Positions 5,289 to 32,410 of a stretch of DNA of 64,000 nucleotides are shown here, piece by piece. Below the pieces are notes generated by a model. It saw only the letters and a program-made list of their open reading frames with translations. It did no database searches and was not told the DNA's origin. Position 1 is the stretch's first letter, and each line of letters opens with the position of its first letter. The stretch comes from an uncultured Bacteroidales bacterium (GTDB lineage: Bacteria > Bacteroidota > Bacteroidia > Bacteroidales > P3), in the NCBI GenBank assembly GCA_947165255.1, contig CAMUZR010000006.1, forward strand, positions 62,001-126,000. Reading direction: 5' to 3'. Position numbers and translations under genes: made by a program.

Positions 5289-5312
5289 AGGGCATCCCAA
5301 TTGGGGTGCCCT
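5289..5312. terminator. Bidirectional terminator between folD and the lipoprotein gene
   Basis: Hairpin with arms AGGGCAtCCC and GGGgTGCCCT around an AATT loop, with A-rich sequence on the left and TATTTG on the right, so it can end transcription of the convergent genes from either side. Confidence 0.75.
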
Positions 5313-5340
5313 TATTTGATATGCCTGCAATTACTAAATA

Positions 5341-25567: not shown

Positions 25568-26827
25568 TTATTCTTTATGAGTGGATTTGACTAGTTTAAT
25601 CAGTTCTGCCCAAACGGCAAAGGCCGTTCGCTCAATGGTCTGAGCGCGTCGGTCGCCAAAGTGCAACAGGCGTGTCACCACATTGCCGTCGGGACCGGCA
25701 ATGCCAATCCATACCGTCCCCACAGGACATTCGGGCGTTCCGCCCGTCGGGCCTGCCACTCCTGTGGTAGCCACGGCATAGTCGGCTCCCAGCCTTCTGC
25801 GCACTCCCTCAGCCATCTCGCGCACCGTTTCTTCGCTCACGGCCGTATGCTGCTCCAAGGTTTCGTGCTTCACGCCCAGGGCACATTCTTTCACCTCGTT
25901 GCAGTACGATACTACGCCTCCGCGGAAGTATTCCGATGCCCCCGCCATGGCGGTCAGCTGCTGTGCCAGAGTGCCGCCGGTGCAACTCTCGGCTGTGGCC
26001 AGGGTCAAGTGGTATTTCTTGAAGGTATAGGCTACCAACTCGGGTAGCGACTCCATATCTTCGCCCACAATATATTGTCCCGCTAAGGAGTAGAGGCCGC
26101 TCACTGCCTCGGTCACCTGCTGCTGCAACAGTGGGCGGTCGTCGTGCCTGCCGTGGGCAGTAAGGCGCAGTTTCACCATGCCCGCCTGAGGCAGGTAGGC
26201 CAGCTTTATGTTCTTGGGCAAAGCCGTTTCCCACGGTTCTATCAAGTCGCTCAGGAAACTCTCGCCAATGCCCTGCACTAGTATGTTCTTGATGACAATC
26301 TGGTCCGTGCGGAAATGCCGTACCAGTCGCGGCACCACTTCGGTTGCCATCAGGTTCTCCATTTCAAACGGTACCCCTGGCAAAGACACCACAACCTTCC
26401 CTCCCTGCTCAAACCACATGCAGGGAGCCGTCCCCAGAACATTGTTAATCATGGTGCAGCAGCGTGGTACCCATGCCTGCCCGCGGTTGATGGGGGTGAG
26501 TTCGTAGCCGCGAGCGGAGAAAATGCGCTTGACGTTGGCCAGCGCTTCCTCGTTTTCATATAGTTCGCTGCCGAAAAACTGGCAGAGACATTTCTTCGTT
26601 ATGTCGTCCTTAGTGGGTCCTAGGCCACCGGTCATTAGCACTGTGTCGCTGCGCTGCAGGCAGTGGGCTAGGTAGTGATTGATATCTTCGGCATTGTCGC
26701 CGATTACGTAAGTGCCGCAAACGTCAATTCCTGCCTGTGTCAGCAACTGGGCCATACGGCTGGCGTTGGTGTTGACGACTTGCCCAATCAGCAGCTCGTC
26801 GCCTATGTTCAAAATGGTTGCTTTCAT
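25568..26827 (-). CDS. cinA: CinA-family nicotinamide mononucleotide deamidase
   Basis: 419 residues. The N-terminal half is a MoCF domain acting as ADP-ribose pyrophosphatase (NIGDELLIGQVVNTNA, VLMTGGLGPTKDD); the C-terminal half is the NMN deamidase PncC-type domain (LATAESCTGGTLAQQLT, ATTGVAGPTGG). It recycles NMN in the pyridine nucleotide cycle. It heads a four-gene operon with DUF486, GH2 and the amidohydrolase. The promoter element lies only 4 bp before its ATG, predicting a leaderless message. Confidence 0.94.
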   Translation of the reverse strand: MKATILNIGDELLIGQVVNTNASRMAQLLTQAGIDVCGTYVIGDNAEDINHYLAHCLQRSDTVLMTGGLGPTKDDITKKCLCQFFGSELYENEEALANVKRIFSARGYELTPINRGQAWVPRCCTMINNVLGTAPCMWFEQGGKVVVSLPGVPFEMENLMATEVVPRLVRHFRTDQIVIKNILVQGIGESFLSDLIEPWETALPKNIKLAYLPQAGMVKLRLTAHGRHDDRPLLQQQVTEAVSGLYSLAGQYIVGEDMESLPELVAYTFKKYHLTLATAESCTGGTLAQQLTAMAGASEYFRGGVVSYCNEVKECALGVKHETLEQHTAVSEETVREMAEGVRRRLGADYAVATTGVAGPTGGTPECPVGTVWIGIAGPDGNVVTRLLHFGDRRAQTIERTAFAVWAELIKLVKSTHKE

Positions 26828-26831
26828 GCTG

Positions 26832-26839
26832 CAAAAATA
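26832..26839 (-). promoter_or_regulatory. -7 promoter element TATTTTTG, 4 bp before cinA
   Basis: TATTTTTG then CAGC then ATG on the minus strand. The same 4-bp CANC spacer is seen at the GH3 gene (CACC) and the radical SAM gene (CATC). Confidence 0.7.
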
Positions 26840-26959
26840 CTACTTTTTTTCGACATAGAGAAAAACCAAGACCAACTCCAGAATTCAGACCCCTCCAATA
26901 CCACTCCCAAGAATTACTGTTTTGTTTTTTTCTCTTTTATAGTTGTCGTTTTTTGCGCC

Positions 26960-27103
26960 TCTTTTTGCGAGAATGAATTATGTTTTATTGGTGTTGTTCT
27001 AGTTCATGACTATGCCGACATCAACCCCTCTGTGTTGTGGCAGACTTTGAATGAAGATTTGGAGTCTTTAAAAGCACAATTACTATCATACATAAATGAA
27101 TAA
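26960..27103 (+). pseudogene. HepT-like (DUF86/HEPN) toxin remnant, C-terminal part
   Basis: The frame ending at 27101-27103 encodes VLVHDYADINPSVLWQTLNE followed by DLESLKAQLLSYINE. This is the shape of the HepT C terminus, where RNxxxHDYxxID is followed by a W and a D-LxxLKxQ helix. The Arg-Asn that should precede VLVHDY is replaced by Gly-Val, so the RNase motif is damaged, and no N-terminal part or MNT partner is visible upstream. Identification rests on pattern recognition over about 40 residues. Confidence 0.5.
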
Positions 27104-27145
27104 ATGACATAAGAATCTGAGCTAACCGCTCATTTCTTCACCCCA

Positions 27146-27214
27146 ATTCCTGCTGGTTTTTTGGCTGGCAGGATTTTTTTCTTTCTATTTCGGGAAAAAG
27201 TTGTATTTTTGCAA
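27146..27214 (+). repeat. Terminator-promoter cassette, copy A
   Basis: A CCTGCTGG ... CTGGCAGG hairpin followed by T-rich sequence, then CGGGAAAAAG and the promoter element TATTTTTG (27204-27211). A near-identical cassette lies at 27766-27835. This copy drives the antitoxin gene. Confidence 0.7.
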
Positions 27215-27230
27215 ATTGAAAGGAGTTTTT

Positions 27231-27407
27231 ATGGATACTATAGAATGTGCGAAAAATCCTATCGCAAAAGTGTCGATTCATGCGCCGTCACCGTCACGTG
27301 ATGCAAATGAAAAGATGACAAAAACGCCAGATAGTGAACTGATGACGGTGGAGGAATACTTCGGCATATTAAGAAAGAGGGTGAACGAGTACTATGACAA
27401 CCTATAA
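27231..27407 (+). CDS. Antitoxin of a ParE-type toxin-antitoxin pair
   Basis: 58 residues from the ATG at 27231; an earlier TTG in frame lies inside the promoter element. The first 40 residues are unstructured-looking and no ribbon-helix-helix or HTH is recognisable. The C terminus (MTVEEYFGILRKRVNEYYDNL, split here by position 38-58) resembles the short toxin-binding tails of Bacteroidales antitoxins. It overlaps the toxin start by 14 bp, the usual arrangement. Function is inferred mainly from that context. Confidence 0.72.
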   Translation: MDTIECAKNPIAKVSIHAPSPSRDANEKMTKTPDSELMTVEEYFGILRKRVNEYYDNL

Positions 27408-27702
27408 GGTTAGAATACATCGCATGGCAGTGCTCGATATGGACGCACTGTATGAATTTCTAACAACGGTCATGTCAAAAGAAGGGGCAAATCGTTATAT
27501 TGATGCAATGATAGCCGAGGTCAATTCTCTCTCAATCTTTGCTGACCTATATCGCCCGAGTCGATATGCCGACATCCGCTGTTACCATCCAAGAGCTTGC
27601 CGCATGGTATCTCATAATAAACGGTGGGTATATGTTTTCCATATAGAAACGGATATGGTCATCGTTGACCGCATTCTTCCTTCAAAAATGATAACGAAAT
27701 AA
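27394..27702 (+). CDS. RelE/ParE-family toxin
   Basis: 102 residues of the RelE/ParE fold: YKVRIHRMAVLDMDALYEFL, ANRYIDAMIAEVNSL, CRMVSHNKRWVYVFHIE and IVDRILPSKM follow the order beta-alpha-alpha-beta-beta-beta of the family. ParE members poison gyrase while RelE members cut mRNA on the ribosome; the sequence does not decide between them, though the helical N-terminal half and the closing RILPSK fit ParE better. Translation is coupled to the antitoxin. Confidence 0.8.
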   Translation: MTTYKVRIHRMAVLDMDALYEFLTTVMSKEGANRYIDAMIAEVNSLSIFADLYRPSRYADIRCYHPRACRMVSHNKRWVYVFHIETDMVIVDRILPSKMITK

Positions 27703-27765
27703 TCATTTTAAACATAACTGAGCATAGCACTTACCTAATATGCTAAGTGTCTATCTTTTGGCTCT

Positions 27766-27835
27766 ATTCCCTGCTGGTTTATGCTGGCGGGGATTTCTTT
27801 TTCTTGTTATGTCGGGAAAAATGTGTATCTTTGCA
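27766..27835 (+). repeat. Terminator-promoter cassette, copy B
   Basis: CCTGCTGG ... GCTGGCGGGG hairpin, T-rich segment, GTCGGGAAAAATG and TATCTTTG (27826-27833). It aligns with copy A along its full length of about 70 bp. It would end the toxin transcript and drive the dGTPase gene. Confidence 0.7.
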
Positions 27836-27926
27836 ACGTCAAACACCCCGAAGTCCGCAAGGGTGAGGGGTGGGCGACAGAATTAATTCGTTTTTACTGC
27901 ATATAATCCTTTTATATAGTTTATTT

Positions 27927-29297
27927 ATGGAAACAAGATTTTTTGCCGCTAAAAGTGAGTTAACTGGGACAGATCGTTATTGCAGACACCCCGTTGATAA
28001 ACGTGATGGGCGTTCGGATTTTGCAATAGATAGAGATAGAATTTTGTATTCAAAAGCATTCCGTCGTTTGAGTGACAAGACTCAGGTGTTTTTCTCAGAT
28101 GAGATAAAAGATCTTCGGACGCGATTAACGCACACGTTAGAAGTCAACCAAATTGCTCAGACGATAGTCTCTTCTCTTAACCTTAACAATGACTTAACTG
28201 AAGCAATTGCTCTTGGTCATGATGTTGGTCATACTCCATTTGGTCACGTAGGAGAACGTACGCTTAATTTGATAATGAACAATTGCGAGCAGTTTGGAAT
28301 ACCAATTCAAGATACCAATTTAGGATTCAAACATAATTTACAATCACTTAGGGTGCTTTGTGATTTGGAGGGAGAATTAAACCTTTCAAAGTACACATTA
28401 TGGGGTATTGCTAATCACTCGAAGATAGTTTATTCTCCGTGTAAGACACAGCATGGGTTATGCTACAAAATACACCATCCTTCGCTATGCCCTCGTAAGA
28501 GAAATTTATCTTGCAACTATTATAATACATATATAAATAGTATTGGTAATAATAATTATTGGTCAATAGAAGGTTTGGTCGTGGCTCTCGCTGATGAAAT
28601 AGCACAACGGCACCATGATATTGAGGATAGCATTCGGTTTAACATTCTCAAACGTGAAGTACTGCTTGATAAATTACAAATCTTTAATCATGTGTTTTCT
28701 GAATTGGATAAAGAGAACTATGAAACGCTAAAAGGAATGTCTGATAATTCTGATGTTCCAGATGATATGTTCCTTTCTCAGTTTTCTCGTTTAATCGTAA
28801 AAGCGTATGTGTTTAATATTACTGAGGAGACAAAAAGACGTATAGTGGCAAAGGGGGACGAACTACATATTAATTCATTTCAGGATTTTCAAGATCTTAA
28901 ATCAGAGATTCCTTATGAAGACGCGAAAAGTCTTGTCGGTTTCTCTAATGAATTTGCTAGTATTGATGAGGAGTTCCATTCTTTCTTAAAATCTTCAATA
29001 TTAAACTCTTATGGAGCTCAGATGATGGATGGTAAAGGTGCGTACATAGTACGAAAGTTATTTGAGGCATATTTGTCAAATCCCACGCAGTTACCGGATG
29101 ATGAGATTAGAAGATTTTATAAAACCATTCACACTACAGGTGGAACAATGGGGCAAATGAGGGGAACAATAAATCGCTATAGGAATACCGGACCGAGAAG
29201 AAATCATCTAATGCGGGTAATTGCTGATTATATAGCGAGTATGACTGATGCATATGCGTATGACCAATATAATCTGTTATATGGAACAATGGTATAA
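27927..29297 (+). CDS. dGTPase-like HD-domain dNTP triphosphohydrolase
   Basis: 456 residues from the ATG at 27927. The HD-domain ligands are visible: His69 (RLTHTLEVNQIAQ), His98-Asp99 (ALGHDVGHTPFGH) and a later Asp in VVALADEIAQRHHD. The C terminus keeps RRNHLMRVIADYIASMTDAYA. Such enzymes hydrolyse dGTP to deoxyguanosine and triphosphate; some dGTPases deplete nucleotides to stop phage replication, so a defence role is possible here given the neighbouring toxin genes. Base composition is much more AT-rich than the flanking housekeeping genes, which suggests transfer. Two longer in-frame starts upstream lack support. Confidence 0.87.
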   Translation: METRFFAAKSELTGTDRYCRHPVDKRDGRSDFAIDRDRILYSKAFRRLSDKTQVFFSDEIKDLRTRLTHTLEVNQIAQTIVSSLNLNNDLTEAIALGHDVGHTPFGHVGERTLNLIMNNCEQFGIPIQDTNLGFKHNLQSLRVLCDLEGELNLSKYTLWGIANHSKIVYSPCKTQHGLCYKIHHPSLCPRKRNLSCNYYNTYINSIGNNNYWSIEGLVVALADEIAQRHHDIEDSIRFNILKREVLLDKLQIFNHVFSELDKENYETLKGMSDNSDVPDDMFLSQFSRLIVKAYVFNITEETKRRIVAKGDELHINSFQDFQDLKSEIPYEDAKSLVGFSNEFASIDEEFHSFLKSSILNSYGAQMMDGKGAYIVRKLFEAYLSNPTQLPDDEIRRFYKTIHTTGGTMGQMRGTINRYRNTGPRRNHLMRVIADYIASMTDAYAYDQYNLLYGTMV

Positions 29298-29383
29298 GGA
29301 ACAGAGGTATAAATAGTACTGCGCCCAACATATATTTTCACTCCATGTTTTTTGCGTGAGGTGAATTTATAGAAACAAGAGCG

Positions 29384-29593
29384 ATGTTCAACGCCAATAT
29401 TAATCAGCGCATTGGTATGATAGTTGTGGAGGGTGCTGAGGGCAACCCTGTGTATCTATACGACGTAGTCGGGCGGTTGCTGGCCACCAGACGTGAGACG
29501 GTGCAGGAGGTGTTGCTCGACGTGCCCGCCTCGGGTGCCTATCTCGTGAAGATAGGCGACGCTCCGGCAAGGAGGATTGTAGTGAGAAGATAA
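29384..29593 (+). pseudogene. Orphan type IX secretion C-terminal sorting domain
   Basis: 69 residues: GMIVVEGAEGNPVYLYDVVG, then RLLATRRE and LLDVPASGAYLVKIGDAPAR ending RRIVVRR. This is the classic C-terminal domain that directs cargo through the type IX secretion system, found normally at the end of large secreted proteins. Here it stands alone without signal peptide or cargo, beginning just after an AT-rich gene, so it is read as the 3' remnant of a broken gene. It is followed by a strong terminator, presumably that of the original gene. Confidence 0.75.
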
Positions 29594-29614
29594 GTTTATT
29601 GAGTAATAAAACTC

Positions 29615-29647
29615 CAACCCGCCTTTGAGCAAGACCCAAAGGCGGGT
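29615..29647. terminator. Strong hairpin terminator after the sorting-domain fragment
   Basis: Perfect 11-bp arms AACCCGCCTTT (29615-29625) and AAAGGCGGGTT (29637-29647) with an 11-nt loop, followed by GTTTCTTC. It can also serve the convergent ATPase gene. Confidence 0.85.
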
Positions 29648-29674
29648 TGTTTCTTCACCCACTTTACGATATGG

Positions 29675-30790
29675 CTATCTCAGCATCCACAGTCGGAATA
29701 CAGGATCGGCAAACCGAACGCTCTTCCCATCCTTCTCTATCAGTTCCTTTTTAATGAGCGTTTCTTGTATCCTGCTGATGTTCGACTTGGAACCCAGATT
29801 GTATTTTTTAAGAACCTCTGCTGAGGTGAAGTCGTCCGTCTCACCTGCAGCCATTGCTTTCAAGAAATTGAGTTGATATTGCGACAGTCCTTCCGTCTGT
29901 TGGATGAACAAAAGCGAGTTTTGGTCGATTAAGTCATTTACAGCTGTGTCTATTGCTCCATCGCTGACCTCCGTGTCGCTACAAAGCATCACATTCCAGG
30001 CTAATTGTTGAACATACGATGATTGGTTTTCTACGGTATCACAGATTCTTGCCACTTGGTCAACGGTTATCTTTTGCCCTTTTTCCTCAAACTTCCTAAT
30101 AATAAACGGAGTCCAGTCGGCGGTGGGTATGGGCTGTAGAAAGAGAATGTCACCAAATTGATAGAAAGGCATTCGCTTGTTTTGGAATAGGTCTGCCAGC
30201 ATGTGTTTCTTGCTTCCGAATAAACAATAGGAACAATTCTGCTGCAACTGCCATACACCACGTATGCGTTTCTGTAGTGCTATCGAATCTGTGAATGAGC
30301 CAATTTGCTGAAATTCATCAATACACACTACAATGTGCTTCCCAATCTTCTGTGCCAGTTTCTCAGGCAGTTGAAGAATCTCCTCAGGTGAATAGTCTCT
30401 GGGGGTGATACCCAACGACACAGACATTTCGTTTCCAGGGTCAGGACCAAATGATATTTTCGGTGTCAAACGGGTCAGGAACTCTTTGATATTCTGCAAT
30501 AGCAACTCTCCTTTGTTGGATGTCTGCTTCAGGAGTGCCGACACTAGTTTGTTATAGAATTCGTATTCTGTGCGGCAATCGTAGATGTCTAGGTATACAA
30601 CGGCAACGATAGAGGTGTCAACTTTAGTAATGACATGCCTCACCAACGAGGTTTTTCCCATTCTACGAGGTGAGATTAATATCACATTTTGACCGTTTTC
30701 AAAGTTGCGTATCAAGCGCCGACTTTCGTCTACTCTGTCTGTAAAATTCTCACCATCAACGGCTACACCGTACACAAAAGACTTCTTCAT
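29675..30790 (-). CDS. MNS-type AAA ATPase with C-terminal winged helix
   Basis: 371 residues of the archaeal-ATPase/MNS clade of STAND-like NTPases. Walker A is SPRRMGKTS at 40-48; Walker B is VVCIDEFQQI near 160. The last 70 residues are a winged-helix domain (LNFLKAMAAGETDDFTSAEV, NISRIQETLIKKELIEKDG). Members are common and multicopy in Bacteroidales, with unknown roles; related STAND proteins sense phage or stress. A conspicuous palindromic site lies immediately upstream of its promoter, suggesting tight regulation. Confidence 0.85.
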   Translation of the reverse strand: MKKSFVYGVAVDGENFTDRVDESRRLIRNFENGQNVILISPRRMGKTSLVRHVITKVDTSIVAVVYLDIYDCRTEYEFYNKLVSALLKQTSNKGELLLQNIKEFLTRLTPKISFGPDPGNEMSVSLGITPRDYSPEEILQLPEKLAQKIGKHIVVCIDEFQQIGSFTDSIALQKRIRGVWQLQQNCSYCLFGSKKHMLADLFQNKRMPFYQFGDILFLQPIPTADWTPFIIRKFEEKGQKITVDQVARICDTVENQSSYVQQLAWNVMLCSDTEVSDGAIDTAVNDLIDQNSLLFIQQTEGLSQYQLNFLKAMAAGETDDFTSAEVLKKYNLGSKSNISRIQETLIKKELIEKDGKSVRFADPVFRLWMLR

Positions 30791-30818
30791 GATAGGTAAA
30801 ACTTGTTAATTCCGATTG

Positions 30819-30826
30819 CAAAAATA
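30819..30826 (-). promoter_or_regulatory. -7 promoter element TATTTTTG for the MNS ATPase gene
   Basis: TATTTTTG on the minus strand followed by CAAT, about 28 bp before the start codon. Confidence 0.65.
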
Positions 30827-30840
30827 CGATTTTTTTTCGA

Positions 30841-30879
30841 AAGTTCACAAAGTTGTGGACCACAAAGTTGTGAACTTTG
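30841..30879. promoter_or_regulatory. Compound palindromic operator upstream of the MNS ATPase
   Basis: Outer arms AAAGTTCACAA (30841-30851) and TTGTGAACTTT (30869-30879) are perfect complements. Between and overlapping them are two copies of CACAAAGTTGTG (30847-30858, 30862-30873), each itself a CACAA/TTGTG palindrome. The site covers the -33 region of the ATPase promoter. Confidence 0.65.
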
Positions 30880-30958
30880 GTTGTGATAGTGTTCTAAAAT
30901 ATTTATTTATAGATTAATAAATTCGAGAAAATGGTGATTGAAAGGCCGTCTTTCAGGG

Positions 30959-31243
30959 TTATTTTTTCCCGTATCTTTCTTTGAAATAGGCGTTCTCTTT
31001 CTCGCGGTGGCGGCTCCAGCGCAATTGCAGACGGGCGCAGACGAGGGCGATGAGGGCACTCAATACGATGTGAAGCGGTATCTCCCACCACACGAACGAC
31101 TTGGTGAAGAAAATGCTGACGCCACAATCAAGCACAGAAAAGATGATCAGAAGGATAAAAAAATCTAAGGAATAGTTATTGAAATTCTTTTCCTTGTTCT
31201 TAAATAGCAGCATACGGCCTTCTTCTTCGATTTGTTTGTCCAC
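30959..31243 (-). CDS. Small membrane protein with two transmembrane segments
   Basis: 94 residues with hydrophobic helices near 27-47 (LDFFILLIIFSVLDCGVSIFF) and 52-70 (WWEIPLHIVLSALIALVCA), flanked by charged ends (RWSRHREKENAYFKERYGKK). No family recognised. A run of nine G lies 20 bp upstream of the start. Function unknown. Confidence 0.6.
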   Translation of the reverse strand: MDKQIEEEGRMLLFKNKEKNFNNYSLDFFILLIIFSVLDCGVSIFFTKSFVWWEIPLHIVLSALIALVCARLQLRWSRHREKENAYFKERYGKK

Positions 31244-31483
31244 AGTAATAATATGTTTAAATGGGGGGGGGATGTTAATTCTTTTTTTTATAATAACTTA
31301 AGAATGCTGTTATTATTGTGTTAGATTCTTTAAACCCAAATTGATCATTAGGGTTTACAGAACCCACCTAAAAAAGATTAATCAAGGTGGGTGGAGAATA
31401 GCAATTTAAGTGATTCATGATGACGCGGCAATTTTTATTAGTAGTTGATATATAGTCACTTGTGCTTTTGTTGGATGTTTTTG
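31244..31483. other. Divergent intergenic region with hairpins and a G9 tract
   Basis: Holds G9 at 31263-31271, a hairpin AAACCC (31333) / GGGTTT (31351-31356), and an 8-bp hairpin ACCCACCT (31362-31369) / AGGTGGGT (31385-31392). The GGGTTT could pair with either side. No gene seen. Confidence 0.5.
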
Positions 31484-31516
31484 TTTGCACAATTGGGTGG
31501 AAATTCGTATTTTTGC
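31484..31516 (+). promoter_or_regulatory. nadC promoter, TTTG and TATTTTTG
   Basis: -33 TTTG at 31484-31487 and -7 TATTTTTG at 31509-31516 are 21 bp apart, a near-consensus sigma-ABfr promoter, 25 bp before the nadC start. Confidence 0.8.
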
Positions 31517-31540: not shown

Positions 31541-32410
31541 ATGATGAATGACATCCCGAATTTAGACGAATTGATTCGCATGGCGCTGCTTGAAGACGTG
31601 GGCGACGGCGACCATAGTACATTGGCCTGTATTCCCCCTTCAGCCACAGCATCGGCCAAGATGGTGGCCAAGCAGGACGGCATCCTCTGCGGTATGGAGG
31701 TAGGGCAGCGCGTTTTCCAGTTTGTCAATGACGATTACTACCACAGCCTGCTGCCCATCAGGGTTACTCCTTTCAAGGAAGACGGCCAAGAAGTGCGGAA
31801 AGGCGACATCCTCATGACTGTGGAGGGCTCTTCGGGGGTCATCCTCACGGCCGAACGCACGGCGCTGAATTTCATGCAGCGCATGAGCGGCATTGCCACC
31901 CAGACCCATAAGATGGTGCAGATGCTGAACGGCCTTCACACCCAATTGTTGGACACACGCAAGACGACGCCCAACATGCGTCTGCTGGAGAAATATGCTG
32001 TCAAGTGCGGAGGAGGTACCAATCACCGTATCGGCCTCTACGACATGATTATGCTTAAGGACAACCACATTGATTTTGCCGGAGGCATCGAGGCGGCCAT
32101 CGACCGCACCCATGCTTACCTTGAAGAGAAAGGCAAAAAGCTGAAGATAGAGATTGAGGTGCGCGACCTAGACGAGTTGCAGCGTGTGCTGGATCACGGA
32201 GGCGTGGATCGTATTATGTTGGACAACTTTGACGTGGATACCCTCCGCGAGGCAGTCAAACGCATTGGCGGCCGCTATGAGACTGAGGCTAGCGGCGGCA
32301 TTACCGAAGCCACCCTGCGCCCTTATGCCCAGACAGGCGTGGACTTTATTTCCGTGGGCGCGCTGACCCACCATATCAAAAGCTTGGATATTTCGTTGGT
32401 GAAGAATTAG
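31541..32410 (+). CDS. nadC: Nicotinate-nucleotide pyrophosphorylase NadC
   Basis: Quinolinate phosphoribosyltransferase: quinolinate plus PRPP gives nicotinate mononucleotide in de novo NAD synthesis. 289 residues. Diagnostic text: LDTRKTTPNMRLLEKYAVKC, GGTNHRIGLYDMIMLKDNHI and the C-terminal ASGGITEATLRPYAQTGVD. Translation could start at either of two adjacent ATG codons. First gene of a plus-strand run with yihY, the THUMP methyltransferase and queG. Confidence 0.95.
   Translation: MMNDIPNLDELIRMALLEDVGDGDHSTLACIPPSATASAKMVAKQDGILCGMEVGQRVFQFVNDDYYHSLLPIRVTPFKEDGQEVRKGDILMTVEGSSGVILTAERTALNFMQRMSGIATQTHKMVQMLNGLHTQLLDTRKTTPNMRLLEKYAVKCGGGTNHRIGLYDMIMLKDNHIDFAGGIEAAIDRTHAYLEEKGKKLKIEIEVRDLDELQRVLDHGGVDRIMLDNFDVDTLREAVKRIGGRYETEASGGITEATLRPYAQTGVDFISVGALTHHIKSLDISLVKN

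Follow-up and report, generated by a model that had tools for sequence, protein, structure and literature searches.

In Pseudomonas aeruginosa, the hotspots cDHS1 and cDHS2 are fixed sites between core genes at which the defence systems vary and which are not obviously tied to one group of mobile elements (PMC10250203). Their transfer by homologous recombination in the conserved flanks has been suggested (PMC10250203). Similarly, E. coli hotspots are described as core-gene sites that are mostly unoccupied (median occupancy 8%) and hold varied defence cargo (PMC10121019). Here, we describe a locus to be compared with these, found in a stretch of 64,000 nucleotides (the window) from an uncultured Bacteroidales bacterium. 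Between the genes cinA and nadC of the window lies an AT-rich block of about 26,865-31,503, which carries, among others, the gene of an HD-type dGTPase. The block is probably the occupied state of a fixed cinA-nadC slot, the cargo of which is exchanged by recombination, with the dGTPase acting in phage defence by depletion of dGTP. An earlier note on this DNA had proposed a defence island; at the level of comparative genomics this is supported, and it is refined here to an exchangeable slot.

The cinA-nadC site in related genomes

The genome that carries the window is called G000, other G numbers being relatives and L numbers fetched loci. It spans 2.93 Mb in 43 contigs, with a completeness of 98.5%, and the comparison sets were 119 genomes of the genus and 190 of the family, G000 being included in both. 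The right conserved flank, nadC (31541..32410, plus strand; PF01729, PF02749), is present in 115 of the 119 genus genomes. Its cinA side was fetched in 60 relatives (20 + 20 + 20), mostly from the top of the similarity list. The left flank, cinA (25568..26827, minus strand; PF02464, PF00994, PF18146), could be located within the fetched DNA of 35 of them, which makes the gap measurable there. Measured from start to start, the gap does not exceed 490 bp in 30 of these 35, of which 13 have 96-99 bp. As a rule, cinA and nadC are adjacent, and the slot is empty in most of the measurable relatives. A gap above 1 kb was observed in five (G105, G108, G037, G073 and G077), two of them with unrelated genes, so that occupancy of the majority, as in the P. 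aeruginosa hotspots, is not found.

One type of island is shared by six genomes: G000, G105, G108 and G037, along with G028 and G006, which belong to the unmeasurable relatives and bear it next to nadC. All six have a 94-amino-acid (aa) gene and a sorting tail of the type IX secretion system (T9SS) on the nadC side. As in core hotspots, conserved core genes stand on both sides, the defence genes between them differ at the level of annotation, and no single mobile-element family appears responsible. No integrase or transposase was recognised among the seven block proteins scanned against family profile libraries (a single TniB row for the ATPase, E 0.09, is below the cut-off), and there is no tRNA in the 64-kb window. 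The comparison of presence and absence that the earlier note had called for finds the site fixed and the gene set not conserved there.

From left to right, the block holds a HepT remnant, a 58-aa partner with a ParE-like toxin, the 457-aa dGTPase, the T9SS tail, a 371-aa ATPase on the opposite strand and the 94-aa gene. That the sequence turns AT-rich and changes content between cinA and nadC, as had been noticed before, is borne out by the GC profile, with 36-46% across about 26.9-31.5 kb against about 50-57% outside. Per-gene values, for which 36 other open reading frames (ORFs) of the window served as background (mean GC 0.542, GC at third codon positions (GC3) 0.66, codon-adaptation 0.675, sd 0.077), point to foreign codon usage in island genes. 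The dGTPase is the lowest in codon-adaptation (0.44; GC 0.365, GC3 0.30); the ParE-like toxin has 0.48 (GC 0.417) and the ATPase 0.54 (GC 0.436). The T9SS tail joins host-like GC (0.548) to a lowish codon-adaptation (0.555), and the 94-aa gene joins low GC (0.446) to host-like codon use (0.70). AT-richness by itself is weak evidence, because the 10-12.5 kb stretch of the window, where the genes read as rpsP- and rimM-like, also has 41-46% GC.

Cargo of the six islands

The cargo of G000 consists of the toxin-antitoxin pair, the dGTPase and the ATPase. Its closest relative, G028, has the same pair (95% nucleotide identity) and ATPase (99% aa identity). Where G000 has the dGTPase, G028 carries a GmrSD protein of 612 aa (above the cut-off for PF03235 and for PF07510; PADLOC HEC-06) and a small gene that resembles the PIN partner found in G108. 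An N6/N4 methyltransferase and an MvaI/BcnI-type endonuclease, and no ATPase, are found in G105. The island of G108 holds a PIN toxin with its small partner, a 304-aa PDC-S31-like protein (PADLOC, E 4e-9) and a leucine-rich-repeat (LRR) protein with a T9SS tail (LRR-T9SS). An LRR-T9SS protein is also present in G037, with a 253-aa gene without assigned family and a truncated ParE-like toxin, and in G006, where a 227-aa gene without assigned family accompanies it up to the contig end.

The orphan T9SS tail that had been seen in the window (29384..29593, plus strand) is indeed present, with a Por_Secre_tail match of 22.1 bits, just under the cut-off of 23; its GC, as given above, is host-like. 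It is 80-86% identical in nucleotides to the 3' ends of the LRR-T9SS genes of G108, G006 and G037 and to the tail of G105. Compared with G108 and G037, homology limits flank the dGTPase at about 27,880 and 29,385, and in these two genomes the interval is filled by the rest of a leader RNA, an unassigned gene and the LRR body. Since these limits enclose the dGTPase, the tail is the end of a replaced LRR-T9SS gene, a remnant of a surface protein.

These genes could also suggest a slot devoted mainly to the variation of surface proteins, with leader RNA, unassigned gene and LRR-T9SS gene as its regular cargo and the dGTPase, GmrSD and restriction-modification genes as occasional hitchhikers that have no function particular to the slot. 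LRR-T9SS genes or tails are present in all six islands, similar proteins (by reading) occur in related islands of G027, G079 and G095, and the leader RNA often stands ahead of LRR-T9SS genes. However, the LRR body is gone in three of the six (G000, G028 and G105), where a defence-type gene stands next to the tail, and toxin-antitoxin genes recur across the islands; such an explanation is therefore regarded as unlikely.

Modules, joints and lateral exchange

Several cargo genes are preceded by a terminator-promoter module made up of a GC-rich hairpin, a T-run and a promoter core. The Bacteroidota-type promoter core is TAnnTTTG. In the first module (27148..27213, plus strand), the hairpin lies at 27148-27173 and is followed by the T-run and the core at 27191-27213; the second (27768..27835, plus strand) stands ahead of the dGTPase. 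Both hairpins are strong (z -3.0 and -5.5, respectively). The whole genome contains just two exact copies of the core, at 27,191 and 27,813; two further sites differ by one mismatch, and the reversed control gave no site. A looser core pattern occurs 2-4 times in 8 of 11 loci of relatives.

One such joint can be read at the first module. The stretch 27,002-27,213, which comprises the HepT remnant and this module, has a counterpart of 87% identity (blastn, blastp) in G079 (L175), where an intact MNT-HepT pair (PF18765/PF01934) ends and its module follows. After the module, G079 continues with the leader RNA and a 227-aa gene, and G000 with the toxin-antitoxin pair. For seven of the nine loci compared, at least one alignment shows homology to the module breaking off where the core ends, at 27,213-27,214, which suggests that recombination may take place within the modules. 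The broken HepT-like toxin described before is confirmed as a 3' remnant (27002..27103, plus strand) covering 29 of 120 positions of PF01934; neither a complete HepT nor any MNT match was found in the block. Like the T9SS fragment, this remnant resembles a scar left by the exchange of cargo.

Furthermore, the island genes have been exchanged laterally, because between G000 and G028 the ATPase and the toxin have a synonymous divergence (dS) of 0.14 and 0.06, respectively, as against 0.90 for the adjoining nadC. The toxin-antitoxin pair is 95-96% identical in nucleotides in G028, G044 and G095; in the latter two it lies on contigs other than that of nadC, and the nadC identity is 77-78%. G027 and G079 have the ATPase, with 89% identity, at a different site, where a T9SS tail again adjoins it. 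Island-like pieces were also noted elsewhere in the chromosomes of relatives: G027:C18 (L173), G079:C17 (L174), G079:C1 (L175), G044:C70 (L179) and G095:C6 (L180). They have terminator-promoter modules together with, variously, LRR-T9SS-like, toxin-antitoxin and unassigned genes, and they include a 115/171/123-aa three-gene set and the intact MNT-HepT pair.

It is proposed that the slot serves as a small defence hotspot bounded by core genes, and that its cargo would move between species by recombination in shared sequences, namely the flanking core genes, the module and the T9SS tail. The dGTPase has taken the place of most of the leader RNA, the unassigned gene and the body of the LRR surface-protein gene, and it may now be transcribed from a captured promoter. 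A wider proposal can be made tentatively, as a possibility that we hold with some doubt. Defence, toxin-antitoxin and surface-protein genes may be integrase-free cassettes, swapped whole between the common module and the end sequences (T9SS tail, 94-aa gene); the RNA of about 270 nucleotides (nt), equipped with a promoter and a terminator-like hairpin of its own, would belong to the system and regulate surface-protein and accessory genes throughout the family, and the dGTPase would have captured its promoter and first hairpin.

The dGTPase

The dGTPase (27924..29297, plus strand) is an intact HD-domain dNTP triphosphohydrolase of 457 aa, or of 475 aa if translation starts at the in-frame GTG at 27870. 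With 222.7 bits it exceeds the curated cut-off (152.35) of the subfamily TIGR01353, and the earlier naming of an HD-type dGTPase with lower GC was thus correct. The positions H70, H99, D100, D224, H108 and E111, which comprise the metal ligands of the HD domain and the HE catalytic dyad, are invariant across 23 sequences, so the catalytic residues are intact. The spacing of H108 and E111 equals that of the dyad H126/E129 of CloA (PMC12265719). A Cys/His-rich insert at about residues 173-197 (window 28440-28514), modelled with lower confidence and common to many but not all relatives, possibly binds metal.

A second, distant dGTPase copy of the genome lies at G000:C5:134773-135417, adjoining frr- and pyrH-like genes. 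Close orthology to a housekeeping copy, which had been named as a possible refutation, is not seen, the identity between the two being 42% over about half the length. No ortholog was found in the 190 family genomes, and homologs of any kind occur in only five of the 119 genus genomes (G000 included), none of the others being an ortholog. Among the contigs of named genomes, the search for orthologs returned only a distant Sulfurimonas protein. An origin from phages or plasmids was considered and rejected: peptide patterns found no relative in viral contigs, and the 25 phage and 260 plasmid records that match all have less than 60% identity.

The dGTPase could instead be an accessory metabolic enzyme that tunes the dNTP pools and is unrelated to phage. 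TIGR01353 includes cellular enzymes, the closest solved structure is a Thermus dNTPase, and the NCBIfam anti-phage cut-off is unreached. The rarity of its homologs in the genus, its foreign codon usage and its exchange at a site where relatives have restriction genes all speak against a metabolic role, which we hold to be quite improbable. The protein is most likely a defence effector that depletes dGTP and likely protects against phage. It would hydrolyse dGTP during infection and so starve phage DNA synthesis; specificity for dGTP, activation by infection and the resulting protection are presumed.

Several observations weigh against the exchangeable defence slot and its dGTPase effector. The dGTPase occupies the slot in G000 only, its score for the NCBIfam model antiphage_dGTPase (NF041026) is 192.7 bits against a cut-off of 400, and its predicted structure is nearer to the Thermus dNTPase than to the proven anti-phage dGTPases. 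The measurable sites of G073 and G077 hold unrelated genes, and in 25 of the 60 relatives the distance is not measurable (contig end, or cinA off the stretch). Four of the six islands have a gene matching the defence library, the PADLOC matches here being without curated cut-off; the other two (G006 and G037) carry LRR-T9SS proteins, and the gene tested there gave no PADLOC match. Finally, the looser core pattern is absent from 3 of the 11 loci of relatives (L042, L053 and L176) and gives two window sites outside the block, and exchange at the modules is read from homology limits, not from observed events.

The leader RNA

The start of the sequence past the second promoter resembles that of a conserved element. 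In relatives this element is about 270 nt long, and a GC-rich hairpin with a U-run closes it ahead of the next gene. The window keeps only about the first 45 nt (27836..27880, plus strand; from the alignment of copies), which form the start of the dGTPase leader, and homology to G108 and G037 stops at 27880. Through RNAalifold analysis of 16 copies, 75 pairs were obtained, 9 of them with compensatory changes. A covariance model of the 148-position core finds the RNA in 95 of the 190 genomes of the family and in 6 of 12 genera, with up to 8 copies per genome. Four copies are present in G000 outside the window. Examples of full copies are L208:1425-1700 (G000:C8) and those with the core positions G000:C1:173227-173375, C16:23343-23488 and C25:18717-18861. 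In the window the core model has no match, as expected if only the 5' end of the RNA remains; taken together with the remaining dGTPase leader, the remnant folds no better than shuffles (z -0.76).

Covariation was tested in 33 aligned copies, of which 30 are covariance-model loci and some also built the model. In these, 98.5% of 1,512 cells pair, and both partners vary in 15 of 46 pairs. Double-change cells number 113, against 36 (sd 6) after shuffling and at most 13 with slid partners; further pair types are not above the shuffles (32 vs 31.5). The alignment was fitted to the structure and so favours it, and the slid controls drop to 31-43% paired. Antisense matches of the model (15 of 48 rows) were kept out by a stricter threshold.

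The leader RNA is strongly covarying and is not in Rfam 15. It was compared with tRNA, tmRNA and the Rfam families without a match: 12 loci gave none at E 0.1, and 7 further loci gave five weak rows (E 0.086-0.86) that fall well short of the gathering score and do not overlap the RNA. Plasmid, phage and viral records likewise gave no match, the viral search being made by one exact pattern. In the portions of the literature searched, those of PMC8040213 and PMC2864571 among them, no recognised description of it was seen; an entry in the supplementary candidate list of PMC8040213 is possible. When the DNA downstream of 27 copies was read, 11 preceded starts like those of LRR surface proteins, and the others lipoprotein-like or unassigned genes.

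Toxin-antitoxin pair, ATPase and the nadC-side edge

The ParE-like toxin (27394..27702, plus strand; 102 aa) exceeds the cut-off of PF05016 (27.1 bits against 23). Its 58-aa partner (27231..27407, plus strand) overlaps the toxin gene and, from its position ahead of it, is the probable antitoxin. The intact toxin-antitoxin pair claimed earlier stands as far as the toxin and the overlapping gene are concerned; the partner frame, scanned from 27201, matches no family in the profile libraries. The pair may serve to stabilise the island.

The ATPase (29675..30790, minus strand) is a P-loop protein of the PF01637 family with a winged-helix-like C-terminal region. Defence ATPases of the STAND/Avs kind are large proteins with C-terminal sensor repeats and an effector domain. 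The proposal that this one is a STAND defence protein finds no support: it has 371 aa and no sensor repeats, its family has matches in 70 of the 119 genus genomes, and its matches to anti-phage models are weak and partial (20.8 bits, cut-off 790; 18.1, cut-off 370; PDC-S01, 24.6 bits). The nearest solved structures are archaeal PF01637 ATPases (PDB 2qen and 2fna, both fold matches, 2qen being the best sequence match). Only a general resemblance of fold is claimed, because the predicted local distance difference test (pLDDT) is 72 and the whole-chain root-mean-square deviation is above 13.

Unlike in these archaeal proteins, a conserved palindrome, AGTTCACAAnnTTGTGGnCCACAAnnTTGTGAACT, precedes the ATPase gene of the block. 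It lies at 30840-30878, directly upstream of the ATPase promoter, and is a probable operator. Its 27-bp core has 26 sites in 24 of the 119 genus genomes and none for the reversed control. Among the 24 loci listed, the ATPase adjoins in 12 and not in the other 12; in 4 of the latter the 94-aa gene adjoins, and some of the remaining ones have another ATPase-like gene, or a short remnant of one, nearby (ORFs read by eye, no family search). A mobile repeat was considered and rejected, given the single site in G000 and the 12 listed loci beside an ATPase; the palindrome is read as the operator of the ATPase, copies of which would persist as scars after gene loss. A further ATPase-family gene, broken by stop codons, was noted at G028:C100:4148-5253, with the palindrome nearby at 5306-5332.

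The small 94-aa gene (31,243-30,959, minus strand) at the end of the block was absent from the earlier description; it marks the island edge in the clade. It encodes a small membrane protein, with two hydrophobic stretches by reading and a weak SLATT_1 match (14.4 bits, cut-off 41), and strong relatives (E < 1e-30) occur in 9 of the 119 genomes.

A neutral pile-up of selfish toxin-antitoxin and ATPase genes at a permissive intergenic site, with no benefit to the host, could also produce such turnover, to which the HepT and T9SS remnants, the truncated ParE of G037 and the palindromes without ATPase belong. Against this, the ratio of nonsynonymous to synonymous divergence is 0.03 for the ATPase and 0.07-0.20 for the toxin, and the dGTPase is full-length with its catalytic residues kept; we give the idea very little credence. 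Because these two genes are under purifying selection, the island is not simply decaying, and of the partly decayed defence island first proposed, the variable island with defence-type cargo stands and simple decay does not.

Comparison with known systems

For these Bacteroidales, the site offers an easily recognised small defence slot, to be searched for between cinA and nadC or beside the module, and a source from which new defence genes can be picked. Related species are seen to have alternative defence-type genes at a single, closely mapped site, and cassette turnover without an integrase is suggested. The structured RNA, present in half of the family genomes and often before surface-protein genes, raises a testable regulatory question.

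Among proteins of known structure, the closest to the dGTPase is the Thermus thermophilus dNTP triphosphohydrolase (PDB 2dqb), the record title of which states no defence role. The identity of the block's dGTPase to the anti-phage dGTPase of Shewanella putrefaciens (PDB 9p8w) and to CloA of the Clover system (PDB 9p8s-v; PMC12265719) is 24-28%, and it differs from both in its Cys/His-rich insert. A nucleotidyltransferase of the CloB type was looked for, and no Pol-beta-type match was found among the seven scanned proteins; the dGTPase itself accounts for the sole 'NTP transferase' row (NF045665, 11.6 bits, cut-off 315).

The site resembles cDHS1 and cDHS2 in being fixed, bounded by core genes and filled with defence genes that differ by genome. 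It is unlike them in its much smaller size (about 4-6 kb) and in being usually empty where measurable; moreover, it is compared here across species, not strains, and its cargo is joined at a terminator-promoter module. With the E. coli hotspots it shares a mostly unoccupied site between core genes and varied defence cargo, whereas those are mainly filled by recognisable mobile elements or integrase islands (PMC10121019), none of which is recognised here. The kind of hotspot is thus already known from these reports (PMC10250203, PMC10121019), and it is the cassette joints and the RNA that make this variant worth following.

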